The position numbers were made by a program, and so were the translations under genes. Below are positions 7,901 to 64,000 of a DNA stretch of 64,000 nucleotides, piece after piece. The DNA is from Brachyhypopomus gauderio (Eukaryota > Chordata > Actinopteri > Gymnotiformes > Hypopomidae), in contig NC_135223.1 in assembly GCF_052324685.1 (NCBI RefSeq), positions 11,225,766 through 11,289,765 on the forward strand, read 5' to 3'. Each line of letters opens with the position of its first letter. Positions within the stretch are counted from its first letter, which is position 1. Below the pieces are notes generated by a model. That model worked only from the letters and a program-made list of their open reading frames with translations. It ran no database searches and was not told the DNA's origin.

Positions 7901-8029
7901 GCGGCTAAGAGGCAAAACACCATCGAGCAGCTACACTTTATCCCTGGAGGAGGGGGAGGTGGGAGTGGGAGTGGAGTGGCTGGAAACCAGGGGGTTAGGA
8001 CAGGGAGCAAGAACGAAGTGACTGTGTGA
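1..8029 (+). CDS. shisa7: shisa7-like receptor auxiliary subunit, 3' part (5' end outside window)
   Basis: Single-pass type I membrane protein of the Shisa6/7/8/9 (CKAMP) group, whose members modulate AMPA or GABA-A receptors at synapses. Coding segments by splice sites and phase: 1-314, 425-579, 2444-2509, 2802-2990 and 7080-8029. The visible joins are phase 2 then phase 1, and they give 557 residues plus stop. Visible features are the end of the Cys-rich Shisa domain (CCGTCHYRFCC, then RRLDQNSCHNY), a transmembrane helix near residues 68-89, RALVDML just after it, and the conserved NLAHLPPSYEAAM...RYSSLKRL block at 2911-2988. The last exon has a long Gly-rich stretch, the IEQLHFIPG element and C-terminal EVTV, a PDZ ligand typical of this group. 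Shisa6 is the closest alternative. The linked ZNF865 and ZNF581 homologs argue for Shisa7. The signal peptide and first exon(s) lie left of the window. Confidence 0.85.
1089..2423. repeat. 32-bp minisatellite, about 42 copies, in shisa7 intron
   Basis: A 32-bp unit (TGCCTTACACACACATCT followed by ACTCCTGTCCCTCC) is repeated head-to-tail about 42 times. Variants are ACACATAT for ACACACAT, CCTCCC for CCTGCC, and CA-extended copies near the right end. The array lies between the exons ending at 579 and starting at 2444, and its last unit ends about 20 bp before that acceptor. Because 32 is not a multiple of three and the unit has no stop in these frames, it creates very long spurious open frames. 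Confidence 0.97.
3540..4552 (+). mobile_element. Degenerate L1-like LINE reverse-transcriptase fragment
   Basis: Lies in the last shisa7 intron (2991-7079). Translation across frameshifts and stops recovers a non-LTR reverse transcriptase: GVRQGGSLSPALF at 3540, then a block ending LLYEGDLVLL near 3660-3694, where YADD is the expected active site. Next come PRRQEHRHQFTLGS (about 3778) and SEIWGPLS (about 4032), and finally RQTWLSNEERC near 4480-4510. These resemble the RT and C-terminal region of L1-clade fish elements. The changed catalytic motif, many stops and missing 5' part make it a dead, truncated copy. No poly(A) tail or target duplication was identified. Confidence 0.75.
4710..4765. 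repeat. (CA)n microsatellite
   Basis: CA dinucleotide tract of about 55 bp with one AAA interruption, within the last shisa7 intron. Confidence 0.95.
4956..4989. repeat. (GA)n microsatellite
   Basis: Pure AG repeat of about 34 bp just left of the Tc1-like element, preceded by an imperfect purine-rich stretch from about 4921. Confidence 0.95.
5062..6264 (-). mobile_element. Complete-length Tc1/mariner-like element with dead transposase
   Basis: Both ends match as inverted repeats: CACTCACTGGCCACTTTATT on the left and, reverse-complemented, GTGGTCGGTGAGTG on the right. The ends are flanked by TA at 5060-5061 and 6265-6266, the target duplication of this superfamily. The length is 1203 bp. The transposase reads on the minus strand (for example GKNGDLSDF, SISETADLLGYS and VYREWSEK near 5970-6110) but is broken by stops and frameshifts. 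The catalytic region is degraded: the expected QDNAPCH reads as a frame-broken remnant. It should be immobile. It lies in the last shisa7 intron. Confidence 0.9.
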
Positions 8030-14924: not shown

Positions 14925-17900
14925 ATGTTCCAGTTTGGAAAATACAATGTGGACATCATAGAGATGCTGAGTGGACACCAAGCCCATCAGTTCAAAGGTC
15001 TTGGATTGGAGCGACAACTACAACACCAGCAGCAAGTGCAGCTTCACCAGCACCAGTTGCAGCAGCAGCAACAACAACAAGTCGAAACCTCTGGGGCTAT
15101 TTTATCTGGACTTGGATTGGGCCCACTCCAAGGATCTAGAACCAGTGCCTTTTCTGATTCGGCATCAATCTTTGCAAAAATGAGTGCTCCTCCCCCACCA
15201 CTACAGCAGCAGTCACTGTCTTCATCCTCACAGGGTTCAAGGAAGTCAAGCAAAATGTCTGGGAGCAGTAGCAGCGGAGGAAGTCACGTGAGTGGCTACC
15301 CTCAGTTTCTGCGCTCATTTCATCCAACTGAGGCGGCCCTAGCACAAGAACAGTTGCACCCAGGAGTTGGACGATTCGATCATTTTGCAGGCAGCAGTGG
15401 AGGTGGAGGAGGTTCAGGAGGAATTGGGGGGCTAGTGTCATCTGTTCCACCACCACCTCCCCCATTACATCCAGGCCTTTCTGTCCCTCAAGCTTCCCCA
15501 GGACCATCCTCTTCTTCCCCATCTCCTTCAAGTTCAGTTTCCAGTTCTAACAACCCTCCTAGCAGTAGTACAGTAACTTCCCTAGGTCACCAATTGGCAG
15601 GCCCTCCATCTGATGCGAGAAGCTTGCATCAGCAGTTCAGCTGCATGCTAGCTGCTAATCAGTATTTTCTCTCCGGAGTGCCAGCTAATTCCAGCTTGGA
15701 ACAGTTTTTGGTCCAGCAAGGCAGCCACAACCACCTTGGCCTTGGTCTGAGTCAAACCGGGGGTGACTCGAGTTCTGGCCTTGCTCCACCACCTGCCCTC
15801 CACTCCTCACACGCACACAGCCACTCGGGCAGCTTGCCACAGCCACAACAGCCTCCACCACAACAGCAGCAGCTGCCGCCTCATGCTCTGTCTCACCCGC
15901 ATCCACATCCGCATCACCCTCTTCATTCCACATCTCAGCCTTCCTCATTAGGCAGTTTTGACTTTCAAGGTATCCCCGTCCTTTCCTCAAACCAGCTAGC
16001 CTCTTTGATGCAACAGGAAGCTGGTTTACCTCTTCCTTTGCCTCTGCACCTCTCCATCTCCAAGGATGACGGGAAAGGAGACGGTGCAGGTGGAAGTGGA
16101 GGAGGCAGGAGAAAGAAAGCTATGGCTGGCTATTTGCCTCAACGGAAATCGGACAACAACAGCACCAATAGCAGCAGCAGTAACAGTCATGGCTCTGCAA
16201 ATCCTAATCCCAGCAGCAGTAGCACCACAGGCGGTCTCAGCCAAGATAACCCATCCAGCCTTGGTGGAGGTGGGTCCGTTGGTATGTCGGGCATTGGTAG
16301 AGATCCTCCTCCCCACTTAACTTCTTCATCTTCCACCTCAGTTGTGTCATCATCTTCCTCCTCCGCTCCCTCATCTACTTCTGCGTCAGTATTGGTGACA
16401 AACAGTTCTAAAACTGACAACCATGGCTCAATGCCCCCTCCCTCATCACAGCCTGAAACGGAGCCACTTTACCATTGTGGAGAGTGTGGCAAAACTTTCA
16501 CACACCTGTCCAGTCTGCGCAGGCATTTGCGCTGTCATGAGATTACCACAGCAGGTACTGCAGGCACAAGAAGCAACATTGTAAATCCTGTTCTGCACCC
16601 AGCAGATGCCGGTGTTCCCCACTCAACCCAAGAAACTTCAGCTTCGTCATCGTGCCACAGTCCCGACAAAACTTTTCAGTGCTCAGACTGTGGCAAGGGA
16701 TTCAAGAAAAAGGGACACCTTCTTCAACATGGGGTCATTCACTCTGGTGCACGCCCATATGCCTGCAGCACATGCAGTCGTGCGTTTAACCGACGTGAGT
16801 CCCTTACCCGTCATGAAAAGATTCACGAGGAAAAACCTTTCCGTTGTCCGGCTTGTGGCCGCTGCTTCCGTGAGAGCACTTCACTGCTCAACCATGCAGC
16901 CTCGGGTACCTGTGGCAAGTCAGGAAGAGGACCCAGACCGAAGACCGACAACAACAGCTCTGTAGTTGGTGGCAAGAGCAATAAAACAGGGGCTTCCAGT
17001 GATGGAATGGTAACTAGTGCAGTGGGTGAGTAACACACCAATTTTTTTCAGGATTGAACTAGTGCATAGATCATATGTAGTTTCTAGAATATATGTATGA
17101 ACATGCAGTATATAGTGCTTACTGGCTAGAGAGGCCTTTCAGTATGCAATATTAATACTGTTTAATTTAAAACTGTTTAATTATGCAGTGTCTTACCGGA
17201 GTGATGGTTACAACGAGAACTACAAAGACCAGCGCCCCCAAAGCAACCTGTACTCTGGATCGTCCTCGTGTGGTGGAGGCATAGGAGGGTCAGCACTTAG
17301 AAAGGCACCATTAGCCCCTACTCTGCACCCACACCCACCAGCCCATCATCATCATCACCATCAGCCACATCTACCCCTGTCCTCACTGCTGGATGACTCT
17401 GAAGATGATGTCACAAGCTCTGTCAATAACGCTATTTCTGCTATCACTGCTGCAGCAGCGAACTGCATGAGTGGGGACCTTAACAGCAGCGGAGGTCGAG
17501 GAGATGACAGGAGGGATATCATTGGAGGACTCCTTGGCGGCCTTGGTCTAGGTCCTCTAGGCTCACCTGGAGGTCCATCTTCAACATCTGCAATGGATAA
17601 GTCCTATAGGGGTGGTGCAAACCAAGACACAATGGCTTCCAGCCAACAACCAAATCAGCAGACACCAGGTGGAAAGCCTAAGCGCCCTCGAAAACCTCGT
17701 AAAAAGAAGGAACCTGGTGCAGCAGGTGCAGAAGCTCCAAAAAGAAGACACTCCTCTCAGAGAGCAGGTATTGGAGACGTTAGGCCGTATTTGTGCAGCA
17801 TTTGTGGTCGAGGATTTGCGAGAAGAGAAACTTTAAGAAGGCATGACCGCATCCACACTGGAGAAAAGCCTCACCATTGTACAGTATGTGGCAAATACTT

Positions 17901-19554
17901 TAGAGAGGCATTTCACCTCAGTAAACACCACACCGTGCATTCTGGTGAGAAGAACTACAAATGTGTTCTTTGTGGAAAGGACTTTGGATATGCCCAGAGC
18001 CTTAAAAGACACGGAAAGCTTCACCAGAAAGGAGAACTGGAAGAAGTACCAACAACACCTGGAGGAGAAAACCTTAACAGTTATCCAGCCCCTGGTGGAA
18101 GCATGATTCAAAGTGGTCAAGGTAACTCTTCATCATTCTACTCATACCCACAAGATGTCAAACCCCAAGGCCCAAATCCTCCGCCTCCTCCCAGACTCTA
18201 CACATGTGCTATATGTTGGAAGTCCTTCCGCCATCACTTCCATCTTACAGCACATCATCAAACAGTGCATGAGGGAGGTGGTGACAAGCTGTTTTCTTGT
18301 GAAGTATGTGGAAAGGCTTTTGCATATTCTAACAGCCTAACAAGACACAGGCTGTCTCAGCATGGCCTAACACGTACTGGTCAAGGAGGACCTCAAGGGA
18401 GCAGTAGTGTCACTGGAGAAGAAAGCAGCGTTGGTGGCTCAACAGTATCCGAGAGTGAAGCTGCCACAAATGCTTTGCTCCAGCTTGCGCCAGCTGGTGG
18501 AGGCCCAGGTGACCAGCAATCTCACAGTGGAGTTCTTCACAGTCACCAGGCGGTTCCATCCCAGCCTCAAGCTGGGTACTCGCCCCTGTTCTATGTACCT
18601 GAGGCCAGTACATCCCTCCCCTCTTCTTCTAATACCGCTCCTTACTCCCAGCCTCTACCTTCAAGTTCCTCTGTAACATCCCTCAATCATCAGCACACAG
18701 GAGTGAAAGGAGAGCCCATGTATCAGAGACATACTCTCAACCCAAACCTACCCGTTCATTCACTTTTACTGCCTCCACCTGAACATCAACACCACCCTCA
18801 CCATCCAGCCGATGTCCAACCACACCACCACCACAGCTTCCACAGCGAGGAAGAGCTGAGGCGCCGTAAGAAAAAAAAAAAAAGACGGGACAGGAGAGAG
18901 AAGATAGGCTACGAATGGAACCCGACCGCAAAAATGGACGGGGAACGGATGGATCTCTCAGTTGGAGAAAGGAAGAAAAATGAAAGGAGGAAACTTCAGA
19001 GGAGAAGAAGAAGAGCAATTCGCCGAAGGCAACGTAAATTTAGGAAAAAAATGGGTATGCTAATTAGGATTAGGCGAGGAGGCGGAGGAAGCAGTGTTGT
19101 ATGTGAACTGGGTCCTCCAGCAGGACTAGAGCTATACAGTCTGTTTTCTTTACAAGTCCCTCTCAAACGATTCCCATGTCCCTTCTGTTTTCTGACAGCA
19201 TTTTCACGAAGAGCAGCACTTATGGTCCACATAGCAGCTAGGCACTGTCCCAGAGTCATTTACCCTCCAGATCGGCTGAGGTGTCCAGTTTGTGGGAAAC
19301 AGTCTCGCAGATTCCTCTCGGCCCTCATTCACAGGAGCTCCCATTTATCCAATCGAGCATTTTCTTGCAAACTCTGTCCCTCTCGTTTCTGGAATTCAGC
19401 GCTCCTCTCAAGACACAAGAGAACTTGTCAAGGAAAACTGTCAGAATTGAGACAAAGGAGAGCACTTTGTTTGAAGTTGACAACAGGAAAAATGTTCAAG
19501 AGAGGGGAGGGCAAAGGGAATATCTCAACCCTGCAAATAGAATACAGTCACTGA
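14925..19554 (+). CDS. znf865: ZNF865-like C2H2 zinc-finger protein (two coding exons)
   Basis: Probable nuclear DNA-binding regulator. Exons 14925-17025 and 17189-19554 join in phase 1 across a 163-bp intron with a GTGAGT donor and TTATGCAG acceptor, giving 1488 residues. Exon 1 encodes a long Gln/Ser/Pro/Gly-rich region. It has one finger near residue 514 and three at about 583-662; the fourth of these ends in Cys, a C2HC variant. Exon 2 has three fingers from about residue 897 (RRETLRRHDRIHTGEKPHHC, then REAFHLSKHH), two more near 18200-18360, and three atypical ones near 19170-19430 after a Lys/Arg-rich stretch. The finger order and the FNRRESLTRH, RRETLRRH and FHLSKHH motifs match human ZNF865, which is shorter in its linkers but has more C-terminal fingers. 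An in-frame stop at 14877-14879 supports the chosen ATG. Intron retention would give a 702-residue form. Confidence 0.85.
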
Positions 19555-29700: not shown

Positions 29701-32196
29701 TGCAAATAAATGAGGTTTAATTAAAGCATAATAGATCCTTTTGCTACCATCTAAGTGCTAATGTTAGAGTATGCTTGTTGTGGGTGTAGGTGTGTGGGTG
29801 AGAGAGAGGGTGAGAGGGACAAATATTTGAGTGTGTATTTACAGTGTTAATGTGTGAGGCCTGTTCTTATTGTAAGACAAGATTTTTACCACAGATATTT
29901 GAAAAATTACCACAGATATTCGAAGATATGCATATCAGCTAATAGTGGATGTGTTCTGTGCCATTCTGTAAAGTCTGATATGAAGAGGTGGAGTTATGTA
30001 AGTTTTACCCTCTAGCAGGTTGATTTTTTCATTGTTCATCCAGCAGTTGTTGAATAGAAAATCCCTGGAGAGGTCTGGAAACATTTCAGTAAGGCCTTTG
30101 CACTCAGAGCTCAGTTATCGTTTCTGGATTTGTGTAGGTTTCTTGCTGTTCCCTTTTCATGTGAAATTTAAATATGAAGTCTTAAGATATTTTTGTAGCA
30201 TATGTAGAGCAGCAGTTATTGTATAATTGAAGTTATGGGCTTCATATTTTGCCGTTTTTTACCAGTTGGTTCCCCCTGGTGGGACTTTGGAGAACTGCAA
30301 CGATAAACTTGAGCAACTGGTTCACAGAGAGAAATGACATTTTAGAGGGGGACACTATTTTTTGGGTGCGTGAGGGATGTGAAGCAGTCTGATCTACTGG
30401 ATCAGGCTGTAAACATCTTTAGCTTCACAGGAAACTCACAAAACGATCATAGACGTGCAGCATCTGAGGAGCAAGTGTCTCTGACCCGCGTGCTCCCTCC
30501 TCCCCTCCTCAGGCACTCCTCAGGGCGGCCTGGAGCCGACGCCCTCGCCCTCCTCCACCTCCTGCCCGCCGCTCGCCGCCCCGCCCGGACCCGCCGGCGC
30601 CGACATGCTGGCGGCCTTCGACCCCGACCCCCCCGACGTGGCCCTGCCGAGCGTCCCGGGCCGGGAAGCATTCGACCCACGACGCCTCCGCTTTGGCGAC
30701 GGCGAGCTCCGACCGCAGCCAATGGTGAAAAAGGCCCGCAAGACACTGGTGCCCGAAAGCCTGAAGGTACTTGCACTCCGAGCAGTGAGTGAGCCCTGAC
30801 ACCTCAGCACCGTGACTCTCACCTCCACCACACACAGCTGTGGTGGTGTGCAAGCGTGCCTGCGTTAACCGCAAATAAAGTTCATATTTATTTTACAAAT
30901 TCCCAGCTAACCACTGCCATTCTGTGTTTTTGTTAGCTCGCTAAGCTATAATTACAGCACACAAGTCCCGGCGGGTTTGAGTAAGCCATCCTCTCAGATT
31001 CACCTACTGTTTAAGCAGTACTGCTGCGCAGACACGGCTGGGTGATTTACTTCCCGTGATATGTTGATTCTGTTAACTCTGCTGTGAAAGGTGGAACATT
31101 CACCCTGTGTGCAGAGTGTCGTTACAGAGGTGTGTGTTAGGTCACCAGTCACCTTGTTGCTGCGTGTCACCTTATCTTTGCATTTCAGGACACTGAACGC
31201 ACACTGAATGCACCTCGCATTCGTCCTGAAAAACAGCTGGATTGAAAAGTAGTTTTCCCAGTGATTCTTATTCATATTATGAAACTGATGAAACTTCTAT
31301 TATACTGACACCTAGTGGTCTGGATGTTTAAACATGGCCACCTCCAGTTGGTCCTCCGCTCTCGGGAGCATAAACTGGGAACTACAAAGGAAATGAGATT
31401 CTTCATCTCATGTGAGCTGCACTTTATAGAAAAAAATGCTAAACTAATAAACAATCACCTTTTTAAACAGTGTTTGTTACTCTATGGTGGTCAAATGGCA
31501 TATTGCTCCTTTAGAGCATCAGCTCTGGAAACGTAATACCCTGTGTTAGTCAGCGTGAGGGTCCCGGCCCCATGGCTGTGGGGCTTTTGAAGTGGAGCCG
31601 TGTGATGGATCTGGGTGGCGGGGGGGGCGGGGGACCCTCCTCTGGTCTGGCGGTATGGTGTGTTACTGTGGCTCACCGCGCCTCCAAACCACAGCAGAGC
31701 TCTGAGGAGATGTGGCTTTAACACTCTTTTTTCTAGCTGTGAGCTTTCTAACTGCGACTCTTCGCCTACTGCTGTACTGTAAAATACCTCAGATCGAGGA
31801 GCTTAGCGCCTGTTGAAAACACCTCAAGGTGAAGAGCTTAGTGCAGGTTAAAGTTTCTACGTCACGTATTCCTGTCAGCAACTGCAGCCACCTCCATAAT
31901 CTTTCTCTTCTCTTCTTTGTGTCAGCGTCTCTTCCTCCATACGCACGTCTCTCACCGTCCGTCTCTCTCTCTCCCTCCAGGATGAGAAATACTGGAGCCG
32001 GCGCTCCAAGAACAACGAAGCGGCGAAGCGCTCGCGGGACGCCCGGCGGATGAAGGAGAACCAGATCTCGGTGCGCGCCGCCTTCCTGGAGCGGGAGAAC
32101 GCCGCGCTGCGTCAGGAGGTGGCCGACATGCGCAAGGAGCTCGGACGCTGCCGAAACATCCTGCACAAGTACGAGAGTCGCCACGGCGACCCGTGA
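23897..32196 (+). CDS. dbp: DBP-type PAR bZIP transcription factor
   Basis: Clock-output transcription factor that binds D-box (TTAYGTAA) sites as a dimer in the nucleus. Four coding exons: 23897-24092, 27372-27836, 30513-30766 and 31981-32196. Phases (1, 1, 0) agree and give 376 residues. Visible parts are an N-terminal NLKSLLQFP element (as RSLLENP in relatives), a transactivation block at about 109-143 with [14 protein letters not shown], the PAR segment [17 protein letters not shown]...KKARK at about 274-305, and the basic region [21 protein letters not shown] leucine zipper and a HGDP C-terminus follow. The basic region is DBP-like, while the zipper end ([16 protein letters not shown]) and the YMDLEEFL block resemble HLF. 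Linkage to shisa7/znf865/znf581 favours DBP. Exon 2 could instead begin at 27330 in the same phase. A second ATG follows the first directly. Confidence 0.88.
24005..24010. promoter_or_regulatory. E-box inside dbp coding exon 1
   Basis: CACGTG within the sequence encoding residues 37-38 of dbp. It adds to the three E-boxes upstream. Confidence 0.4.
25536..25596. repeat. (GATA)n microsatellite
   Basis: About 15 tandem ATAG units, preceded by a TA tract at 25500-25520, in dbp intron 1. Confidence 0.95.
25608..26110 (+). mobile_element. Decayed Tc1-like transposase relic
   Basis: Frame-shifted translation recovers [18 protein letters not shown] followed by a stop and PTEMSARA (about 25709-25780), the second helix-turn-helix region of Tc1-type transposases. 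[15 protein letters not shown] lies near 25931-25975 and matches the segment that usually precedes the catalytic core. Stops and shifts are frequent and no inverted repeats were found. It is a different lineage from the copies at 5.1 and 36.0 kb. Confidence 0.65.
26674..26709. repeat. (GT)n microsatellite
   Basis: GT repeat of about 36 bp in dbp intron 1. Confidence 0.95.
28084..28113. repeat. Perfect 13-bp hairpin in dbp intron 2
   Basis: TAAGGCCCAGTGT at 28084-28096 is followed by TGAT and then its exact reverse complement at 28101-28113. It lies 250 bp inside intron 2. No family was recognised. Confidence 0.85.
29226..29302. promoter_or_regulatory. E-box plus GC-box / G-run cluster in dbp intron 2
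   Basis: CACGTG at 29226-29231 is followed within 35 bp by several GGGGCGGGG-type boxes and G-runs (29258-29302). An intronic E-box is known for mammalian Dbp. The G-runs could bind Sp/KLF factors or form a quadruplex on the + strand. Confidence 0.45.
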
Positions 32197-36617: not shown

Positions 36618-37329
36618 CAGAAAGAGAGGGGAAGAGTCTGTGGGTGTCTCGGAGGGTGTGACGTTCATCTAAAAGAGTGAGAAAGAAGACCATGAAGCTT
36701 GTCAACACTGTTTAGGAGATTGTTAAACTGTGCACCTACATGTATGTGACTACATCATGCTAACCAGAGCAAGGACTTCACTCCCTTATTACTAATTATG
36801 TGATGATGTACATGATCACCGAATCAAAAAAGCCCCGAAAGTAACATGAGAAGCCTTCACCAGTTGTCTATGTCCTTGTTTGTTAGAGACATTTTCTTGT
36901 TTGTTTATTATTGTCTGACACCATACAGGATGTGAGCCGGCAGTGTGTTTGTGTGTGTGATCTGCACGGCCTCTAGGCAGACCAGTAGTCAGGATGGGCG
37001 GAGTTTAGGTTTGTGGGTGAAGAGTCTCTTTGCATGTGTGTGTGCATGTATGTGTGTATGTGCTCAATTGTGTGTGACAATGTGTGGTGACTGCTCCTGC
37101 AGCATTAAGAGAATTGGGTGAAAGGTCCTTTTCAGAGGGAGGGAATTTTTACCCAGAGTTCAAAACACGAACCAGATGTGTGTGTGGCTGCTTGCACCCT
37201 CTGCTCCACTCCGCCCTCACAGTCGACCCATCACCCCCCCCACTACTCCCCCCCCCCCCCACCCCCCATATCTTTATAGCCTCCTCTTCTCATGTGCACC
37301 CTCATACACTCCCCAGTGAGCAGCAGGGA
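36618..37329. other. Spacer upstream of the sushi-domain gene
   Basis: Contains short GT/TGTA-rich stretches (about 37035-37085) and an almost pure C tract (37228-37267) 60 bp before the start codon. The promoter of the next gene should lie here, but no clear TATA box is visible. Confidence 0.45.
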
Positions 37330-37401
37330 ATGATGAAAAGCCATCTTCTGCTCGTACTTCTGCTGTGTGTGTGCTGCCTGTCCCAGCCACCAGGTGAGTG
37401 T

Positions 37402-37438
<37 letters not shown>

Positions 37439-40400
37439 CAAAAGAGGAAATGTGAAAACTAAAATGAAAGTGTGCCTTTTTAAATTCTTTGCTCTACATT
37501 TAATTTTAAACTAAATCTTTTTTGTTATTCATGGTATGTTCTTGGTATGACATGTCAGTTCTCTCAATGGTATCTTCTTTCTCTCTCTTCTACAAAAAAC
37601 AACAGTGCATGGCATTTGCAGGCTTTATTTCTTATATCCTTTGAACTGCTCTCTGCAGTTTGATGTCAGATATGAGTCTCAGATAAAACAGAGTAGAACA
37701 TAGTGGAGCATGGTGTATTTGTGTCTGTGAGACTGTTCACACAACAGCATGTCTGGACTCTCTCTCCCCTTTTGCATGCAGTGATTAGTGATTAGGAAGA
37801 GGCCCTCCATCATTAGCACGACTGGAATTTCCTCTAAATCCCTTTCTTCTCATTTTCAGTCACTCACTCACCCAGCTACACAATAAGCTACTGAAGTCTA
37901 CATGTAATTCACTACAACTGTAATTCACTATAAACTCTTAGTCTTACGTAGCCATGGTGGACCACCTCCGCATCCAAATCCAATTGTAAACCACATTGGA
38001 CCAGATACATTCTGATGGTAACGGTACTATGTCACATAAAATGTGCGATAAAGTGTATAATTCCTAAAGTCAGCATGGTGCAACTTACCTGCGCTAACTT
38101 CACCTGTGTCCTAGGTGAAAGCCAATGAAAACTGACATGTAAATGAGGTCATGTAAATTTAAGACCTCCGTCACGAGACGATTAACGGTCAACTGGTATG
38201 CTGAAATCTGCCAGCCGCATAAAGTATCTAGCTAATCTGCATTTGTACATTTCACCAAGAGGGGAATTGAATGATTACTCTGAGGAGATGACTTCAGTAA
38301 GTCTTCTAAATATCGGCAGAGCAACGTTTTTTCTCTCAGCCTTTTTGTTTTTTTTCCTCTGCAACACCTAAATTTGTATTTCTTATGGCAAACATTCGTG
38401 GTAATCTGACAAAATCCTTGAAATCATGCTCATGCCAAACAGCCCATGTCTTTGCAGAGTTATATTGATGATTTGCATATGTGACCAAATATCTTTAGAG
38501 GTTACGCACTGATTACTTATCGCCACATTTATAGGCGGACAAGTTCAGGTTAAAATGTTTTTGCGGAGTGGCGTTCTTTTATGAATCGCTAATGTCATAT
38601 GCAAATAAGGACACAACGAATCGCTAATGTAATATGCAAATGAGGACACAACGAATCGCTAATGTAATATGCAAATAAAAAGCATATATCGCACAACCTA
38701 CATTCATGTATAAGAAAACGTGTTACCACGGCGCTATTTTCTGTTAACATCAGAGCTTAAATCTGGTGGTAGGTTTTATTTATTTGGCCCTTATTACTCT
38801 TCCACTAGCCAATGTTTAATACATCTTATAGGATTCTTAAAATACTGTTTTTTAATCGTTGCTATGTTCGTGTGGTACCGCAGTGATGAGTGGTGGCTCA
38901 GCCCGAAATGAACGCTTACCGCTTGGTAGTATATGATGTTTAAAGAATACGACCTGAGACCCAAGCTCCTGCCAATAACATTAATTGATTTATTCCTAGC
39001 GAAAGTGAAATCTAATTCAAATCCTACTACAAAAAAGCAATAAAATGATAATACAATTTGTGTCTGTAAGTGTAATTGTGCCATTTTCTGGCACTAAGCT
39101 CAAATATATATGTCTTAATTTTGTATATTTTGTATCAAGTGATTAAATCCACCAATTTTGGTTGTGTATCAATACATCCTGCAGCAGATGTGACCGAACA
39201 GTGCCCAGAGAGGATTCTGGGTAATGAGAGAAGGCGAATATGTTCTAAGAAGTGCCTGCAGGATGAAGACTGTGCTAGCAAGCGTCAGTGTGTGTGTGAC
39301 GGACAGTGTGGACTCAGCTGTGTGGCCCCAGGTCAGACTCCTAACACTTCACAAGATCAGCTCAGTACTTAGTGCGTAAGCTCACAAGCAATGCTGCAAA
39401 GTATTTTTATTAACTGTCAAGAAATTAACAATTATTCAAAGCTCTCAACTTAAAAATGCATTGCTATCCACCTTGTATAACGTGTCATAATATGTATAAT
39501 ATGTATAATAGTGATATAAAGACACGTAAATAATATAATGTGTTATGTTTCACAAAAACATAAATGTGTGTTTCATGAAGTCCTTATGCAAGCGGAGAGT
39601 TAATGACTATTGTGATGCTCTGTACACTTAACGAGGGCTTCCTGCAAACAGGCCGGCCATGCCCATGGCCTCTTCCTCCAGTGCGGCATGCGGAGGTCAC
39701 ACTCCTCACACCCTCCCCTGTGTTTTCTGCTCTCCTGGAGGTGCGTTGTCATCCAGGCTACACCACGGCCAACGGTTTCAGCACCACCATACGTCGTTGC
39801 CAGGGCGACCGACAGTGGAGCGGAGATGAACCTGTGTGCACCGGTAGGCTGAGCTATAAGGCGGATGTCCCGTAGTGAAAACAGCCCTCGGTAAAACATG
39901 CTGTAGTTTTCATCGAATTGGCAGAGTCAGTCGAGGAGGGCATCAGGTTACTCAGCACATGAAGCGAACCATTTGTTGGTGTGGTACTGTCAGACAGCAG
40001 TGGTGGCAGTGCGAATCAGAAGGAGGTCTTGCACTGTCCCCAAACACATCACTGTGTGTGAGTTAGAGAAAATACATAGAGCAATAACATCAATAACATA
40101 TACTTGACATAAAACCAGCTCCTATTCCACTACTCCATCAAGATAAAAGAGAAAATATGCACTTTACTACATATTGCATAAATGTATGTATAAATGTAAC
40201 GTAAATGTAAATAAATAATTTATTTATATAGACTGAAGACGAATTATATTCAAATGTGTAATTTATAAAGCTCTCACAGTACATTTCTAAACATGACAGA
40301 CTGAAACAAGCTGATTTTTCGGAAAAAAAAATCCCCTCCCTCATTCTCTCTCTGTCCCCCCCATACACACACATGAAGAGAGAAAACACAAACATAGATG

Positions 40401-41245
40401 TACGTTGCTTTGCAGAAGACTTAAAGTACAAGAGTCTAGTGAGAACTCTGTAAGCATTTTGCCTTCATCTGGGTCACAGCACACAGACTGATCCCCTGAA
40501 GAGGCTCTTTCAGGGCTGCAAGGTCAAAACCAAGGCCCCAGATCTTCAGAAATCAGGCCCAAAACAACTGAGCTTCTGGCTAGAGATTCTGTACTCTCAC
40601 CCCTACTGTAAAACACACACACACACACACACACTCACACTCACACACATACAAGATGAGAGACATTTCCAGGAATAAAACAGTTCCAGAGATGGGTTGT
40701 AGGCGTTTCAAGAGGAATCCTACAACAACACCTGCAGCTCAGTGATACTGACAGAGCAGATAACACACACGCACAAACGCACAAACTGAGACACACACAC
40801 ACTCACTGTAAATGTGTTAGATTTCCTCTCTGTTCACCAGCCTCACCAGTAAGTCACCCACACACATCAGAAATTATCAGATATGAGTCAATTGAATGTG
40901 TGAACAGATCATTCCAGATGGATCTCTGTGAAGCTTTAGTGTCTAACTGAAGCTGTACGTTCAGCCTATTCATCTGCCCTCACTTCCACCTACCCACCAA
41001 CCCACTCATTCATCCATCTGCCCACTGGTCCTAACCAGCCCTGCTGCACGCTTCACCATAGACATGCCTGTATAGATGCCTGGATAGATGCCTGTATAGA
41101 TGCCTGGATAGTTGCTTATATAGATGCCTGGATAGATGCCCGGCACTCAGGAATCAAGAACATTTTGTTTCCTGTTGAAATCTATTCAAAGTCTATCATA
41201 ACTCTTTCAGCTCTTGCCATTTCTACTGCTCTCTCTCCCCATGTG

Positions 41246-41295
<50 letters not shown>

Positions 41296-41616
41296 GTGGT
41301 TTTCCGGCAGCAGAGCCGGTGGTTGAGCCTGAGATTCACTGCCCCATGCCCATCGATGGGCTGCTGTCGGTGCAGGGTAGTGCAGGAGCAGATGCCCTTG
41401 TGCACTACCGCTGTGGCCCTGGGTGAGGGGGCAGGGACACACTCTGAGCAGCACACACACCACCTCGGTACGGAGGCTTCAGTTATTGTTGTTTTCTCTA
41501 TGCTTTTCTCATTCCTCCCACCCCTCATCCCTTGCAGATCTGTGCTGGTTGGACACAGTGAAAATTTCTGTCATGAGAACCAGACGTGGCGTTACCCTCA
41601 CCCCATCTGTCAACGT

Positions 41617-41697
<81 letters not shown>

Positions 41698-43025
41698 CCT
41701 CTATAATATTTATGTGGGACTATAGAGATCCATACAGAAGTGATTATAGTGAAGAAGAATCAGAACATGAAACGCACACATACATGTGGATTAGATAAAC
41801 TGAAGTGTCAGAAACACTCTGTGTGTGAGTGTGTGTGTTTATCAAAGGGTGTAAATGAGTGTACATTTGCAAGTCCTTCTGCTTCAAAGTAAAGAGAGAA
41901 CTGCTCGAGCCTGAGCAGAAAGTGAGAACTGAAGAGTGTGTGGGGGTGTGTGTAGGAGGGTAGGATAAAGCAGCGAGAGTATTTGGATGTGTATATGTAA
42001 AAATGCAGAGGTGTCAGGGGTGAGAGACTGGGGTTTGGAATGCGTTTGTGCTTGCTATACTGCCCTCTATTGGATCAATCTGGACCTACACGTTGTCGTG
42101 GGCTTTGTTTTTCTACAGTTAAAGCTGTGTGTGCCATCTGCGGGTTATTAGGAGGCACTACACCTTTTGTGGTGGTTCATTTTACACGTGGCCTTGGGTC
42201 AAAATGTAGAGCATAGATCGTAATTTCTAGTTGTGCCTTTATCCAGTCTTGCTTATTTATATGTATGTATGTATTTTTTGTGAGACTATTTTAACTTAGT
42301 GAAATCCTTTTGACCTACTAAATGCCTCTTTAAAACACAGATAGGCATCCATATCTGTTCCGTAGGTGTGTTTTGTCCATCACCAGTGGAGGTCGATCAT
42401 GGTTACCTGGTGGCCGTCCAGAAGTCTGAATATAATGTGAATGATACCATCTATTACCTTTGCAAGAAGACCTTCCTATTGGATGGGCCAAACCAAGCTA
42501 CTTGTCAATCAAATGGCACATGGAGCACAATGCCCTCCTGCCGAGGTGAGAGAGGGAGGGAGTTTATCGAATAAATGCTGCATTAATTATTGGCTTTGTT
42601 CATTTATAATTACAATCAGTTGCATTTCTATTAAACCATCAAATGTCTTTGTCTTACTCACTAATACTCTGCTTGCTACTCAGCCCGCTGTCCAATCCCA
42701 GCTCAGCGCAGCAGAGTGATAGTGGGCGGGGTTAAGCGCTGGCCCTATGATCTGACAGATGGTATGGTAACTCATGGGGAGAAAGTAACATTCTTCTGTA
42801 AACATCCGGAAAAGCAATGCAGTTTCACGGCCACGCAGACTTGTTATGATGGACAGCTCAGTGCACCCACCTGCTACCTTGGTTAGTCAAATGTACACAA
42901 ACATACAGATAAAAAAGTTCCATAATCCCTTTTCTTCCACTCTCCATAATTCTCTCATTCTCTTCTTATTCTCTCTCTCCCCATCCCCTCTGTCTTTTCC
43001 TTTCTTCTCTTTCTCTCTCTCTGTT

Positions 43026-43068
<43 letters not shown>

Positions 43069-43153
43069 AGACCCCACCTGGTTTCAGTATAAACTGTACC
43101 CTCACCGACTGGTGTCTGAGATTGTTTCATGTGACCCTGCTGTACTGGCGTAA
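37330..43153 (+). CDS. Secreted WAP-like/sushi protein with APOH-like C-terminal domain
   Basis: Eight coding exons: 37330-37393, 39185-39331, 39652-39843, 41296-41422, 41538-41614, 42366-42545, 42684-42881 and 43071-43153. Phases agree throughout and give 355 residues. The signal peptide is MMKSHLLLVLLLCVCCLSQP. Exon 2 encodes an eight-cysteine module (C-x12-C-x3-C-x5-C-x5-CVC-x3-C-x3-C) like a WAP four-disulfide core, but with CVC where WAP has CC. Then come a sushi domain in exon 3, one split over exons 4-5, and one in exon 6. Exons 7-8 match domain V of beta-2-glycoprotein I (ITHGEKVTFFCK-like core, KQCSF, then an aromatic/basic tail ending in Cys). APOH has four sushi domains before domain V and no WAP module. 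AATAAA at 43645-43650 may end the transcript. I do not recognise a named ortholog. NAGNAG acceptor at exon 2. Confidence 0.8.
37394..37439. repeat. (GT)n microsatellite at exon 1 donor
   Basis: GT repeat that begins at the 5' splice site of the sushi-domain gene's first intron. Confidence 0.9.
38583..38680. repeat. Three 35-bp repeats each carrying an octamer (ATGCAAAT)
   Basis: Unit GAATCGCTAATGTAATATGCAAAT plus GAGGACACAAC is present three times, with the third copy diverging after the octamer. Octamers are at 38599-38606, 38634-38641 and 38669-38676, exactly 35 bp apart. A reverse octamer (ATTTGCAT) is at 38471-38478. This is in intron 1 of the sushi-domain gene and could be a POU/Oct-bound element. 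Confidence 0.8.
41082..41140. repeat. Short imperfect array of 12-13 bp GATAGATGCCTG units
   Basis: Four to five diverged copies of TAGATGCCTGGA in intron 3 of the sushi-domain gene. Confidence 0.75.
41247..41294. repeat. (CT)n microsatellite forming an exon 4 acceptor tract
   Basis: CT repeat of about 46 bp running directly into the AG at 41294-41295 of the sushi-domain gene, so it serves as the polypyrimidine tract. Confidence 0.95.
41616..41694. repeat. (GT)n microsatellite at exon 5 donor
   Basis: About 78 bp of GT starting inside the donor GTAAGTGTGTG of the sushi-domain gene. Confidence 0.95.
43028..43068. repeat. (CT)n microsatellite forming the last acceptor tract
   Basis: CT repeat of about 38 bp running into TTTAG at 43070, the acceptor of the last sushi-gene exon. 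Confidence 0.95.
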
Positions 43154-56333: not shown

Positions 56334-59300
56334 ATGACCTTGCTGGCCTCAGAGAGGTCGCTGCTCATCCGGAGCAAATTCCGCTCAGGTAAGGGCTGGG
56401 GAATCCGAGCTGGACCCACAATCCTGTCTGAGCTTGGCTGTGTGCAGCTTCCCGGGTTGGATACAGGTGGTTGTGTGCAGTGCTGATAATGGCTGCTGGG
56501 TATTCTTTGTTTTCTCCTTGCTGGGTTGGTTTTGGCAGGAGCAGGAGGCACAAGTGTGTTGATGAAGAAGGACATGTCGATATATAGGATCAGAAGTGTA
56601 GCTGTGACAAAATAAATGTGTAAATAAATGTGCAAAATAAAAGTGAAAATTCTCATTAAAAATCTCATTTGTAGTACATTATGAAAACTGGAACAGTAGC
56701 CTCTCTAAACTGTAGCCCCGGAATGGCTAAGCTTAGTAATTATGAAGTATAAAAGATACAAATTGACTGATTTAAAACCTCTTTTGAAGCAAAGAGTATC
56801 CCTGTTAGGTACAGACTTTATTTATAGTTTGCATTTATAGTTTCTTTAAAAAATGATTCAAAGTCATAAATAATTGTAGGTGCATCCAGCCTTAAAGCTG
56901 CATCCCAAACAAAATCCATACGGATTTTAATGTTATTATTATCCAGAGCAGTTTTGAACAGGATTTAGTCCAGATTACTGCTCATAAAGATGTCCATTTC
57001 AGATTAAATGTGCTGGAATTCACTAGCTCATGAAGTGCCTGGATTACTGGTGTGAGATGCCCTCAGATAAATGCTGCTTTTACACCATCTCACATTTATG
57101 TCCTTCCCAGCTTGAGGCAGAGTTTGAGGCCTAATTGTCAACCCTTTGATGAGTTGAAGCAGGTGTTGTAGAGCAGATGAAGCAGTATCCTGCCATGGCT
57201 CTCCAGGGTTGAGAGTGGTGAAGCCCAAACCGCAGTTCTGTAATGATCCGGGGCTTACTGTGACTATCACGGAGTCGTCGCAACACTGTGTTCTGCTGTG
57301 TTCTGCTGTGTTCTGCTGTGTTCTGCTGTGCCATCCTCTGTGTGTTCCCTTATTATGCATTGAAGAGGGATAGTTGCTAAGTTTCCTCATTGAAGGACAT
57401 GTAGGTAGAGGTTAGCCTGCCTTTGTCACTCTGCCCTGTGCTTGGAACTCCTTCAGAAGCACTGCCCTCTCCGTGGTTTGCCTCATAAATGACATGCTGC
57501 TCACAGACGCCTCCTGCTGGGCACACTGGCACCCCTGTCCATCATATACTTATTAAACATAAGGTCCCTGTGTCTCCCCCCTCACTGACCTCCACATGGT
57601 CGCCTGAGTCAGATAAGTCTGCATACCAAAGGGACAAAAGGAGATACGTTTCAATGAGAGGGAACGAGAGCCTTCTGACTGTGGGTCACTGGTTTGTGTC
57701 TCTGACACAGAGGGAAAGCTTGCCTTAAATGAACTGGCATGAACCCAGGCACTGTACAGTACTGGCTTTTAGTCTATTCGATAACTAATTACAAACAGCT
57801 TAATATGTAGAAAGAACATTCAGTTGAAAAAGAAGAAAAGCACCAGGAATAGTGAATAGTGGTGGTGAACACAGGTTTGGAAGCCTTTATTTCTAGATCA
57901 TTGGAGAAAAAACGCAAACTACAATGTTCTGGATTTTTGGTAAAAGTGGGCTTATTTCAAACATAGACCACTTATGTGAGCTACTAACTTCTAACCAATT
58001 TACCCCAGAGATATGATGAGATGTAATGTACTGGCTTATATCTCTGTGCATGCTGTGCAACCAATCGGTATTTGGCTTCACTGGTTTCACCGAGAAATTG
58101 TATCACATCCAGACATCACTGCCAAGTTTATAACAGCTGGACTTTTAAGGCTGGTCTTGACTTCAGGTTAAGTCTTGTTTTACTGCTTGTAATAACTGAG
58201 TATGACTAATGGTGATGGTAAAAATATGTAGCGCTTCAATAATTAGGAAACAGAACTGGTAGCATGAAGTACTCTTCTCTGTGATTGTCTTTTAGTTCTG
58301 TATCAGTTCCTGCTTCTGTCACTGACCTTTGACACCTTGCTGACCTTTGGTCTGATGACTCATGAGCAAGATGGCAGCATTTGTACTGGCTGGCTGCTGA
58401 TTCCCAGAGTGTTTTTTCTTCCCCACTCAGACACATTTGACTAGCCTAAATTCACCCTTTCATGGTGCTTCTTGTACCAACAAATGGTGGCTTATACCAT
58501 CCTCATGGGTTGTGGTATTACAGCGAGGGCATATTGTCCCGTGGTGAGGACACAGCTCAGTGTGTGGGTGCACACACCAAACAAACAAAAATTAAGCAGT
58601 TGCAATCCAGTTGAGGTATGGAGAGGTGTGTGATCATAAGACCTGAGCAGGAGGTGTGTGAGCATGTTGGTTGCTGCCCATGTTAACAGGTCACTAGCAT
58701 CCCTCCTGAAAAATTCAGGCTTCTTATGTTTTGTCTGATAACGTTTTCATCTTTCCATCCTGTGTTTTGACTGATGATGCCCTCTCTTTTCCATCTTGTC
58801 TTTTGTCTGATAATGTCCTCTCCTTTACATACTATGTTTTGTCTGATAACGTCCTCTCCTTTACATCCTGTGTTTTGTCTGATAATGTCCTCTCCTTTAC
58901 ATCCGGTGTTTTGTCTGATAACGTCCTCTCCTTTACATCCTATGTTTTGTCTGATAATGTCCTCTCCTTTACATCCTGTGTTTTGTCTGATAACTTCCTC
59001 TCCTTTACATTCTGTGTTTTGTCTGATAACGTCCTCTCCTTTACATCGTGTTCAGCTATCAAAATGCAGCACAGCGTTCCTCTTTGTAATCAGCATCAGT
59101 GAGATGGCCTCAATTACCTAGGCAACATCAAAGAAAACAGCAACTATACTCTCTACTGAGCTTATGATCTAGTGCTCAGTTATACACATCAGCTTTTTTG
59201 TACATAGGCTGACTTTTTGTCGATAAGCAACAGAATGGCACAGTTGTTCAGGGGAAAAAGATCATCTCGATCATTCTGTTTTATGAGTTTTCTTGCTTGA

Positions 59301-59625
59301 CACTTTTCTAAGCGTCTCCCTGGAGTGCTGGAAACCATAGATACTTGCTTTGCTTGCATTTTGCTTTTCTAATAGGCTCGAACGCTTTATAGTTGTGAAG
59401 GCGACTTCCTCACAACCTAAAGCCAAAAAACACCAGCATCTACGTTACATTTTGCAGTAAATTGCTGTTTTCGCTAACTGCCCACGCCACGTTATATTCC
59501 AGGAAAAAGCTTCAGTTTTGGATTGAAAACAGGGAACACTGATTTGAAAAGCCTGTGGATCTTGAATGTTTGTTTTCCACAGTAAAGTGACAAGAGGAAG
59601 AAATTACTTAGCACAACTGACGGGG

Positions 59626-59690
<65 letters not shown>

Positions 59691-62600
59691 GGGAGAGAGA
59701 GAGACAGCTGAAGGGGGGTGGGGAATGACCAGAATAGACACACTGAGGGATAAATAGTTCCACCCTCCATAGCTTCTCTTCACCTGCCCTCCCCAGTAAC
59801 TGTGTGTGTGTACGTGTGTGCACACACATGTGCACACATTCATGCATGTGGATGAGTGTGGATGTGTATGTGTAGAAAGATTTGTGGTATGGATGTGATA
59901 AAATAAGCACGTGTGTAATTGTATGGGGGGGGGGGGTGTTGGGGCTGGAGGGAGCAGAGTGCGTATGGTGTGCTGGTCGACTTTTTTACGATCACGAAGT
60001 GCACTTGGTGTAGTCGTAAAACACGGCACCAGTCGTATGGTGTGACCTCATGCTACACTGCCCACTGTCTTGGATCAGGGAGAGTTTTTCCCATAAATGA
60101 CAAGTGCACAAAATACATTTCAGGAATGTGCTTTCTAAAACAAACTTTACAAATTTGTTCAATATTTGAAATTCCGAATAATTTTTTTTGAAAAAACTAA
60201 GAAAATCCATTACCATTTCTTTGTGCAAATGGCCTCTTTTCTTTTGTTCAGTTCTGCAGTTGAGAATACAGAACCGCAGACAGCAGAAGGAGCTGTGTGA
60301 TGATGCAGGTGAGTGCACGTTCATCCGTGTGTGTTGTGCTCATTACCTTACCAGAATTCTGCCAAAGATGGACAAGCAGATAAGCCATCTCATTCTCAAT
60401 GTTTTGTTCTGTTGTAAGGACAAACGCTCTCAATCGAGTGTCTCTAGCGTTTCTCCCTTCCATCATTCCAGCGTTGCTCTGTGTCCTTGACTCCCTTCTC
60501 TAACTCCTCCCATTACCTCCCTCTAACTCCTCCCATTACCTCGCTCTAACTCCTCCCATTACCTCTCTCTAACTCCTCCCATTTCTGTTGTGGTCAGCAG
60601 GAGCGAAGGCCTCCGGTCCTGACCTGGCAGGGGAGAAGGAAGCGCACGGCGGAGTGGTGAGTGCTGTTGATACCGAGAGTGTCTGCTTTAGCAAAAGGCA
60701 AAGCATTCTGGGAAATTTCTTCCCAGTACATGTAGATCGCATGTTAGGTTTGTGCATCTGGTATTGTTTTTTTAATAGTGGTTTTTGCTGAGTGAACCCG
60801 TGGTTAAATGGTGCACAGCTGGAAACAAGGCATTTAAATATATATTTCTTGCAGTCGTACATGATAGTACAGTAGGTATTCTCAAAACATTTAGGGCAAA
60901 TGTCTGTAAATACTGTTACATATATATACACTTTACACATATATACTAAATACTGTGTCATAACTGATGTTGCTATTTTCTGTTACTTTCCACTAATGAC
61001 TAAAAATGTCACATCTGATTTAAAATTAAACTGTAATTCATGAAGATGTATATTAATGGCACAAACACATACTTAGCTAATAAAAATGGTCACAGGCTCA
61101 AATAGCTGAAGGGAGATACTGTAGTACTGAAGTACTGAAAGCAGAGGGTTCCAAGCAGTTCCACACAGTAGAAATATACTTGTGGCTCTTCGTAATGACA
61201 ACCTTTGTCTTTATAAGATGTCTCTGTGTTCACTTCCTCCGCTTATGAAGACGTGGCTAAGAGAGAGTTTGTTAGACAGTAGGAGTGTGTGTTCTGAAGA
61301 GGTGTGCTGGTGTTGATGGCTGCACTGACTGGGCTGTTTCCTGATGCAGCATCAGACAGTGGATGGCGCCACTCTGAAGTCGCCTCCTAGTGGTCTGACT
61401 GCTGAAACTGCACAAGGTGATTCATCGTCAAAGAGGGGTTGGGAGTGGTTCTGTCAGTCAGGTATAACGGTGCCCGTCCTCTCCTGAGCATAAATCTGCA
61501 GGGGGCCATTTGACTATGTTTCTGGTGGGTTACCATTTTAACCTTGAAGTTGCTATGAAAGTCCCTCAACCAACAGTACATGTTGAGTGATACTCTAATA
61601 AGAGCAAAAATAAATTACAGGGGGTCAACCCATCTGACTTTTTTCCCTTTTCTAAAGTGACTGAGCTAAGCTGTGTTTGTCTTTCTTGCCTTTTCACAGA
61701 CAGGGCTAGTGGGGGTCCTCAGAAACAGAAGAAAGCTCGTTTGGTCGAAGATCTGAGCGAGAAGATCCAGAGACGACCTGGACCCCTTGAGCTTCTCCAG
61801 AAACACATCCTACCATTGGAGAATAGTGAGTGGAACTACTAATGTGTTCAAGAACACAACAGGAGTCTTCTAGGTCCTTCTAGATCCTCCTAGGTCTAGC
61901 AGTGGAGATTTTCAGGATTGTCAATGCTTGAAGTGAAATTCCAGGTTTAATGTAACCTAGGAAGTACTCTGTTACTCTAGACATCATATTATAAATTATA
62001 ATTTTAAATTATTATTAATTATATTATAAATGTCTTTGGGCATTCGTTATTTGTTAACGGACACCTCAGCAAATGCCAGACATTGGATGCTATAACAGTA
62101 ACCTATAATATTAAACTACACTGGTTCAAATTTTCCTTCAACACAAAACTCAACACGGACAGACTTGGCTCCCTCTGTTCGTTCTCAAGTCTTGTTTCCT
62201 GTACATTAGCTTCAGATGTCTTTGAAGATGACGTCTCCTCATGTTCCTCTGCATCTCCCGAGCAACTCGGGCTTCACCAATCGCCAGGCTCCTCCTCCTC
62301 ACCTGGGCTGGCCAATCACCAGTCACTAAGTGATGGATCACCTGGTGCCACGCCCAACAATGGCAACCCCAGTAGCGTACAGGTATGTTGCAGAACTTTA
62401 ACAGAATCAGCATGAAAATGAAATCAACTACATTTTCCCAGCATGCAATTATACTCCCATGACTCATTTGAATATGTGCTGCCTCCCCCCCAAACGCAGT
62501 CTAGTCTAGCACTGCTCCCCGCAACCGAGGGTCTCAGTCAGTCTGTCACTATGACAGTGGTGGGGTCAAGCTCCATGGCAACGACTGGGAAAGGCAAAGG

Positions 62601-63854
62601 CATGTACATCTCCTCTCAGACCACGCCCGTGCTACCCAAGGTATAATCACACTGGGCTTAATGTCACGACGCACTTCCCCTTTTAAAGCACTGAAAATGT
62701 TTGAAAACAATTATACAAATATAGCTTTTTATGTTAGTTTTGATCATTTCATAAAAAATGCTTAATTTATGAGATAAACAAAATAATTTAGCTGCTTTGT
62801 GGCAACAATATTTAAAATTTAGCTTGCAGCAATAAAAAGTCAATAATATAAATTAGTATTAGTTATTGAGCTTACAGTTTTAAATGATTTTAACTGAATT
62901 TATGTTAATTTATGAAAGTTCTATTTACTCCACTATTAGTACATCATCTCTGGTTTTATTAAACAAAATAAGTCTCAACTTAAACCTGAAATCAAAGGTT
63001 TATTATGCAGTTTTGATTACAGCCATATGTACTTGGTTAGTAGGAACATACAATCCTACTGGGAGGACTGTAGGACAATCCTGCTGTCAGAAGTCATTTT
63101 TTCAACTGATGAACTTGTGGTGCTGTTATAATGTGTTTTTCATTGTTTTGATCAGGTCCTCCTCCCTCATTTCTCCTGTTATGTTTTGTCTGTTCCCCGG
63201 TTCTGTCTCTCAGGTAGCTCATTCCATCCTGGGCGGGTCTTTAGCCTCGCCCCGCCCTCCACGCCCGCGCAAGCCACGCGACTGCAAGCCGAAGATGAGG
63301 AAGCTGAAGTACCACCAGTACATTCCCCCAGACCAAAGGGGCGGGGCTGCAGGGGCTTCTGGGAACAATTCTCAAAAGAACAGCAGTCAGACTCCACCCG
63401 TCGACCCCGCCTACTCCCATCTCTTACATCAGCAGCAGGTTTTCCTGCAACTGCAAATCTTAAACCAGCAACAGCAGGTCACTGTGGCAACCAGGTACAT
63501 TAACCTGAAAACATCACCAGCAATCCCCAGTTTAACAACATCACATTTACAATGGAGTAGTCAATAGTTAAAAAAACAGTGTTTCTTGCACAATATTAAA
63601 CTGGGGAGCAACTTTAAATCATTTTTCATCAGTCTGTATTGTAAAAAGTGCAAACATTGTCACATTACACATAAGAGCAACAGTTCTTATTAACATGGCC
63701 ATTGTGCAGCAGCAAGAGCCAATTAGTGAGGTGTTCCGGAGCGGTGCCACAAACCAGCCCTCAGCCTGTTCCCCCAGCAACAAACCCCACCCCCTTGGAA
63801 ACAAACCCCACCCACAAGATAGAATTACTTCCTCCGAACCTCGACGACCTCACG
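56334..63854 (+). CDS. Myocardin/MRTF-family SRF coactivator, 5' part (3' end outside window)
   Basis: Nuclear coactivator family for SRF. Coding exons: 56334-56388, 60252-60308, 60601-60656, 61350-61416 (tentative), 61700-61825, 62210-62382, 62500-62640, 63214-63494 and 63710-63854. Phases agree and give 367 codons. MTLLASERSLLIRSKFRS is almost the MYOCD N-terminus. VLQLRIQNRRQQKEL is a degenerate RPEL1, and EKIQRRPGPLELLQKHILP (about 99-117) a good RPEL3. An acidic SPEQ segment, KPKMRKLKYHQYIPPDQRG (basic box, about 250) and LQLQILNQQQQ (Gln-rich box) follow. LLPPNLDDLT opens the SAP domain at the last donor (63855). RPEL2 is not seen. The leucine zipper and transactivation domain lie beyond the window. 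It could be myocd itself; linkage suggests a separate paralog. NAGNAG acceptors at exons 3 and 9. Confidence 0.83.
57281..57330. repeat. 10-bp tandem repeat TTCTGCTGTG
   Basis: Four perfect copies in the first coding intron of the myocardin-like gene. Confidence 0.9.
58728..59050. repeat. 36-bp minisatellite, nine copies
   Basis: Unit TGTTTTGTCTGATAACGTCC plus TCTCCTTTACATCCTG. The first copies are more diverged. Being a multiple of three, it keeps two frames open (spurious 115- and 123-codon frames). It lies in an intron of the myocardin-like gene. Confidence 0.93.
59630..59703. repeat. (GA)n microsatellite
   Basis: About 74 bp of GA with two GGG interruptions, in the same intron, followed by short GT stretches (59802-59825) and a G run (59926-59936). 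Confidence 0.95.
60497..60582. repeat. 22-bp tandem repeat before an exon acceptor
   Basis: Four copies of TCTAACTCCTCCCATTACCTC ending 18 bp before the acceptor of the exon at 60601. It supplies a pyrimidine-rich tract. Confidence 0.9.
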
Positions 63855-63867
63855 GTAAGAGTCTTTT

Positions 63868-64000
63868 TAAGCTGTTCCTAACTGAATGAACAGGTAGCTG
63901 TTCCTAACCGAATGAACAGGTAGCTGTTCCTAACCGAATGAACAGGTAGCTGTTCCTAACCGAATGAACAGGTAGCTGTTCCTAACCGAATGAACAGGTA
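63868..64000. repeat. 26-bp minisatellite at window end
   Basis: Unit GCTGTTCCTAACCGAATGAA plus CAGGTA, about five copies, continuing past the right edge. The first copy lies 15 bp after the donor of the SAP-domain exon, and each copy contains CAGGTA, a donor-like sequence. Confidence 0.95.

Follow-up and report, generated by a model that had tools for sequence, protein, structure and literature searches.

A probable fish orthologue of MAMSTR, the fourth myocardin-family gene, retains basic and glutamine-rich boxes in Brachyhypopomus gauderio

The stretch of DNA analysed here (the window, 64,000 nucleotides) spans positions 11225766-11289765 of contig NC_135223.1 (C13) of the fish Brachyhypopomus gauderio and carries, on its forward strand, a gene of the myocardin family. 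Between 56334 and 63854 lie nine coding exons with canonical AG/GT borders that join in phase without a stop; these limits, given by an earlier reading of the letters alone (the original prediction), coincide exactly with the start codon on one side and the last base of exon 9 on the other. Exons 10-14 lie beyond the window end, at 64201-66312 in window numbering, and supply the SAP domain and the stop codon. The full gene has 14 exons and an intact frame of 739 aa. Exon 1 (56334-56388) holds the start codon and MTLLASERSLLIRSKFRS, the first part of a MEF2-binding motif (MBM), and exon 2 (60252-60308, phase 1 to 1 as in myocd) the end of the MBM and the first half of RPEL1 (VLQLRIQNRRQQKEL). 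Exon 3 (60601-60656; 56 bp, phase 1 to 0) and exon 4 (61350-61416; 67 bp, phase 0 to 1) occupy the positions of the RPEL1b and RPEL2 exons. Both motifs are lost, exon 4 containing no RPxxxEL. An intact RPEL3 (RPGPLEL) is encoded by exon 5 (61700-61825), followed by an acidic/Ser-rich linker in exon 6 (62210-62382) and a Ser/Thr-rich linker in exon 7 (62500-62640). Exon 8 (63214-63494) carries the basic box KPKMRKLKYHQYIPPDQ and the Gln-rich box HQQQVFLQLQILNQQQQ, while exon 9 (63710-63854) ends at LPPNLDDLT directly before the SAP domain. A 26-bp tandem repeat occupies 63870-64000, in the intron directly before the SAP exon, and runs on past the window end.

The encoded protein consists, in order, of a MYOCD-type N-terminus, half an RPEL1, RPEL3, the basic box, the Gln-rich box, LPPNLDDLT and the SAP domain, after which comes a long C-terminus that includes the stretches SIDDILE and DWLE. 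Its N-terminal part matches MAL/MRTF-A chains in the PDB (3tpm) with E-values of 1.7e-8 for the whole sequence and 3.6e-7 for the RPEL3 stretch alone, the RPGPLEL at aa 104 being the sole RPxxxEL of the protein. The SAP domain is recognized by Pfam (PF02037, 46.8 bits, E 2e-12) and matches the MKL1 SAP chain 2kvu (2.8e-11). The basic box KLKYHQYIPPDQ begins at aa 255 and recurs unchanged in four of the five paralogues read from this genome, mrtfa2 differing by one residue; together with the Gln-rich box it gives the gene a feature of the family. As judged by sequence comparison, residues 1-27 contain the MEF2-activating motif and are identical at 21 of 27 positions to myocd of the same genome, which reads MTLLGSEHSVLIRNKFRS at its N-terminus and has an exon end identical to that of exon 1 of the window gene. 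Two results count against the reality of these features: RPEL3 scores 21.5 bits, just under the Pfam RPEL cut-off of 23, and the genome scan (797 Mb, 840 contigs), which yielded 21 RPEL matches, did not pick it up. The exons, the domains and the 739-aa frame confirm the MYOCD-like N-terminus and the basic and Gln-rich boxes that had been claimed, with RPEL3 present as a motif just short of the cut-off, and the window gene is a real, intact fourth myocardin-family member.

Exon borders and sizes of myocd and mrtfa1, taken by eye from the printed sequence, place exons 1-5 of the window gene in order and phase as the N-terminal, RPEL1a, RPEL1b, RPEL2 and RPEL3 exons of myocd. All three genes have an RPEL1b exon of 56 bp, which reads LKSPA.FHEQ in myocd and mrtfa1; the RPEL2 exon measures 67 bp in the window gene as against 70 bp (myocd) and 76 bp (mrtfa1). 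The intron preceding SAP, between NLD..(K/T) and V(S/A)(D/E)L, is common to the window gene, myocd, mrtfb1 and mrtfa2. The actin-binding repeats seem to have eroded in place with the reading frame kept. Loss of the RPEL1b and RPEL2 motifs is also what a decaying copy (a pseudogene) might display, a reading that we regard as extremely improbable in view of the 14 exons with canonical borders, the absence of a stop over 739 aa and the intact basic box, RPEL3 and SAP.

The rest of the family was recovered by genome searches. Among the best candidates found with the first 367 aa were 17 matches, eight to the window gene itself and nine from five other loci. The C-terminal half gave 12 best candidates: four from the window gene, five SAP domains of the same five loci and three weak matches on C17, C11 and C16 (E 1.6-6.2), which were taken as chance. 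On the basis of their motifs, we take the five loci to be myocd (C3:19.84 Mb, its own N-terminal exon also being found), two mrtfa-type genes (C3:21.78 and C6:18.27) and two mrtfb-type genes (C3:22.22 and C6:32.48). The window gene is a sixth family member and not the sole myocd-like gene of the species, the same genome having separate myocd, mrtfa-type and mrtfb-type loci. Pattern scans for relatives in non-vertebrate collections gave 31 stretches on viral contigs and 113 on other genome contigs, with no relative among them.

The relationship of the six genes was examined in a tree of 126 hand-picked columns with the five paralogues and a PDB MRTF-A row, where mrtfb2 is without the RPEL3 block and the PDB row without the basic and Gln-rich blocks. 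Over these columns the window gene is identical to myocd at 86 positions, to mrtfa2 at 81, to mrtfb1 at 78 and to mrtfa1 at 77 (mrtfb2, 61/92). Within this set of same-genome genes and one PDB row, the window gene and myocd group against the four mrtf-type genes with an ultrafast bootstrap (UFBoot) support of 91. The best genome match of the SAP domain is likewise myocd (71% over 34 aa), with 44-59% over 32-68 aa for the four mrtf-type loci. This grouping, the MTLL N-terminal exon and the myocd-like SAP would also suit a second myocd copy from the teleost-specific duplication (3R) that has since diverged and moved, and only one other myocd-type locus was found. We consider such an origin highly improbable. 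The window gene is much further from myocd (86/126) than the 3R pair mrtfa1 and mrtfa2 are from each other (110/126), and its neighbours pair with a different region of the genome.

These neighbours lie upstream and are encoded on the forward strand. At 1-318 a shisa7-like gene encodes its transmembrane part and the larger portion of a Shisa_N domain, the second of a tandem pair, in an exon that begins upstream of the window; its presumed C-terminal exon, at 7031-8029, is an open frame ending in EVTV that was assigned by eye and has no Pfam match. The bZIP exon of dbp is an open frame at 31900-32196 (PF07716, 2.6e-18). The original prediction had linked the gene to shisa7 and dbp over 32 kb; the neighbours stand and the distance does not, since the dbp bZIP exon lies 24 kb upstream, the end of the shisa7-like gene about 48 kb and the nearer zinc-finger frame 5 kb away. 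The frames that it called znf865 and znf581 are C2H2 zinc-finger genes according to Pfam; a PDB search with the frame at 17116-19551 gave general C2H2 matches only and no gene name.

A genome search for Shisa_N returned 19 matches, and all six family loci have one nearby when the nearest exons found are counted: at 56 kb from the window gene, 170 kb from myocd, 57 kb from mrtfa1, 62 kb from mrtfa2, about 25 kb from mrtfb1 and about 75 kb from mrtfb2 (25-170 kb overall). Under a simple uniform model the probability of a Shisa_N within 200 kb of a random site is 0.0095; the six loci are not independent, so the product of these probabilities is not a proper P value. A Shisa tree was built from 13 of the 19 matches over 51 aa; the other six (C1:31.5, C14, C50, C5 twice and C3:9.86), which are weaker or more distant, were left out. 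In it the window copy pairs with C6:1.405, C3:20.02 with C6:34.34 (support 81), C3:21.84 with C6:18.20 (44) and C3:22.19 with C6:32.56 (84). With modest support, the eight copies appear to pair as four ohnologs each doubled by 3R would. Similarly, in a comparison of the six strongest of 13 bZIP matches in the genome, the dbp exon pairs with C6:1371093 (87% identity, tree support 94). The doubling of mrtfa, mrtfb, shisa and dbp by itself points to a teleost genome. The shisa and dbp neighbours of the window gene are thus matched at C6:1.37-1.41 Mb (supports 56 and 94) and not in the myocd block, whose own shisa at C3:20.02 has its partner at C6:34.34; both results speak against a 3R copy of myocd.

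Further downstream, 285 kb from the window gene, a DIL gene lies at C13:11577713. It is identical at 25/47 and 28/47 positions to two other loci of the rasip1/radil type, which share 34/47 with each other; these three loci were compared out of 15 DIL matches in the genome. By exclusion from the other two, the C13 gene would be rasip1. A radil-type DIL gene at C3:19562243 lies about 270 kb from myocd, parallel to the arrangement on C13, and perhaps these two form another ohnolog pair of the same paralogon. Separate from the myocd and mrtf loci, the window gene sits in the shisa7/dbp arm of a paralogon that is fourfold within one genome. As originally proposed, it is an ohnolog from the two rounds of vertebrate genome duplication (2R), a conclusion that is well supported.

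The known gene that fits this position is MAMSTR (MASTR), which has been termed 'a fourth MRTF' (PMC8806183). Human MAMSTR adjoins FUT2 on chromosome 19 (PMC7744576), FUT2 is placed at 19q13.33 (PMC7590248) and the targets of one variant are given as MAMSTR, RASIP1, NTN5, SEC1P, IZUMO1, FAM83E, SPHK2 and FUT2 (PMC10468967). A further source describes a split of the myocardin paralogues in the vertebrate stem line, with MASTR as the skeletal-muscle member (PMC5167519). The original statement that SHISA7 and DBP at 19q13 have no neighbour of this family in human is therefore wrong, as MAMSTR lies on chromosome 19 at the FUT2 locus. Human DBP presumably belongs to the same stretch, and in the fish the dbp bZIP exon, 24 kb upstream, puts the window gene in the corresponding place beside dbp. 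Place and sequence together make MAMSTR orthology much the likeliest reading: the window gene is very probably the fish orthologue of MAMSTR and the fourth of the myocardin family's 2R ohnologs, located in the paralogon arm that holds shisa7, dbp and a putative rasip1. We infer this orthology from synteny and from a human comparator sequence.

That comparator, a human MAMSTR sequence which we take, unverified, as a lead only, matched the window gene best among four fish genes. Separate stretches scored 94.0, 71.6 (C-terminus) and 38.9 bits (N-terminal), whereas the best scores of myocd (66.2), mrtfa2 (57.0) and mrtfb1 (48.1) were lower than the highest of these; 100 shuffles reached at most 45.1. 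The original prediction had instead envisaged a fourth ohnolog missing in mammals, which would be distinct from MAMSTR. In its favour, mammalian MASTR has been described as being without SRF binding (PMC8806183), whereas the window gene retains the basic and Gln-rich boxes. MAMSTR is, however, already described as a myocardin-family member, and with FUT2 (19q13.33) and RASIP1 on human chromosome 19 it occupies the expected place. If, as we assume, DBP belongs there too, the fit extends to that neighbour. Since, in addition, no other mamstr-like gene appeared among the best candidates of the genome searches and the assumed MAMSTR sequence fits the window gene best, a separate gene lost from mammals is highly improbable, marginally more so than a 3R copy of myocd. 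A 3R copy of mamstr itself was not seen among the best candidates of the genome searches, nor did tblastn give a match with E <= 1 in C6:1325001-1365000, the 40 kb where its counterpart would be expected.

Several points weigh against MAMSTR orthology and the grouping beneath it. The branch of the window gene is long (0.405), and a tree of 126 hand-picked columns has a small basis; its PDB MRTF-A row joins neither the mrtfa nor the mrtfb pair of the fish (support 54), so that the resolution is limited. When the comparison is confined to the SAP helices, myocd (73.5% over 34 aa) is only slightly ahead of mrtfa2 (70% over 30). A leucine zipper like that of myocd is not evident by eye in the window protein, which has a short EELSVELEMRERI stretch, also read by eye, at this position. 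The Shisa pair of the window and C6:1.405 has a support of only 56, and the rasip1 label was reached by exclusion, the remaining DIL matches lying outside the comparison. The comparators are paralogues from the same genome, with no verified mammalian or other-fish MAMSTR among them. With the MAMSTR sequence that we assumed, the 38.9-bit N-terminal stretch falls below the best shuffle, and this comparison used three of the five paralogues, pieced together from fragments and lacking their C-termini, a bias towards the window gene. Among the literature matches listed, largely without subscription journals, no title concerned the domains of fish mamstr or the family as a 2R quartet, which is weak evidence of absence.

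Cardiac MYOCD is reported to contain a full MEF2-binding motif in aa 1-27 (PMC9900090), the MEF2 motif to be common to MASTR and MYOCD (PMC3362810), and the basic and Gln-rich domains of MYOCD to be its SRF-binding part (PMC9900090; PMC3362810). By analogy, the window protein would most likely be a largely nuclear transcriptional coactivator that works via partners. The N-terminal motif is predicted to dock on MEF2 and the basic and Gln-rich boxes on SRF, while the SAP domain may help in target choice and the C-terminal end may activate. Loss of RPEL1b and RPEL2 would remove most of the control by G-actin, and the protein would be expected to act in muscle, on targets of MEF2 and SRF, with actin exerting little control, each of these binding and activation steps being deduced from the domains.

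Compared with known members, the window gene resembles MAMSTR in the SAP domain, the N-terminal MEF2 motif and the linkage to dbp and, putatively, to a rasip1-type gene. The C-terminus is also similar, as far as the human sequence that we assumed can be relied on, and in that sequence the basic box presumably reads differently. Unlike MAMSTR, the window gene retains RPEL3, the KLKYHQYIPPDQ basic box and the Gln-rich box. With cardiac MYOCD, whose gene also has 14 exons (PMC9900090), it shares the N-terminal exon, the phases of exons 1-5, RPEL3, the basic and Gln-rich boxes and SAP. It differs from MYOCD in its more eroded RPEL1b and RPEL2 exons, in the long leucine zipper that is not evident by eye and in its genomic neighbours. 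RPEL3, basic box, Gln-rich box and SAP are common to MRTFA and MRTFB (MKL1/MKL2) as well; the window SAP, however, starts VSELRQQL instead of VAELK.EL, and an intact RPEL1-RPEL2 set is absent, so that the protein has no typical actin sensor.

The point of interest is that this gene has kept the parts credited with SRF binding in such proteins. There is an even chance that MAMSTR in fish represents a living intermediate, which serves both MEF2 and SRF as a coactivator and retains the ancestral SRF-binding boxes, and that mammalian MASTR later became dedicated to MEF2 by losing them. A different mechanism for the same gene is possible though doubtful, namely that it works through MEF2 only, as reported for mammals, with boxes that no longer serve SRF; the identity of KLKYHQYIPPDQ across four of the five paralogues, with one residue changed in mrtfa2, suggests instead a kept constraint. 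Gene order within one genome is enough to rank MAMSTR as the myocardin family's fourth member from 2R. The result also corrects the view that mammals have lost such a gene, and it suggests how a cofactor of SRF gave rise to one that serves MEF2 in skeletal muscle.

Other features were observed around the gene. In the first exon of the shisa7-like gene (C13:11224899 to 11226083), a single 394-aa frame includes both of the tandem Shisa_N domains, which are spaced 438 bp apart. The 51-aa copies agree at 46 positions by eye, and a simple assembly doubling seems unlikely because the two differ enough. The same gene harbours a 32-bp minisatellite at 1086-2424 (41.7 copies, 96%) in which all three forward frames stay open. 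The interval from dbp to the zinc-finger gene includes, at 37000-43100, exons with a WAP domain (5.3e-7) and, by eye, sushi-like frames. Downstream of the window gene, two regions about 20 kb apart (L010, about 192-891; L012, about 81-678; read by eye) carry open frames that resemble each other and lie on opposite strands, which suggests an inverted repeat.

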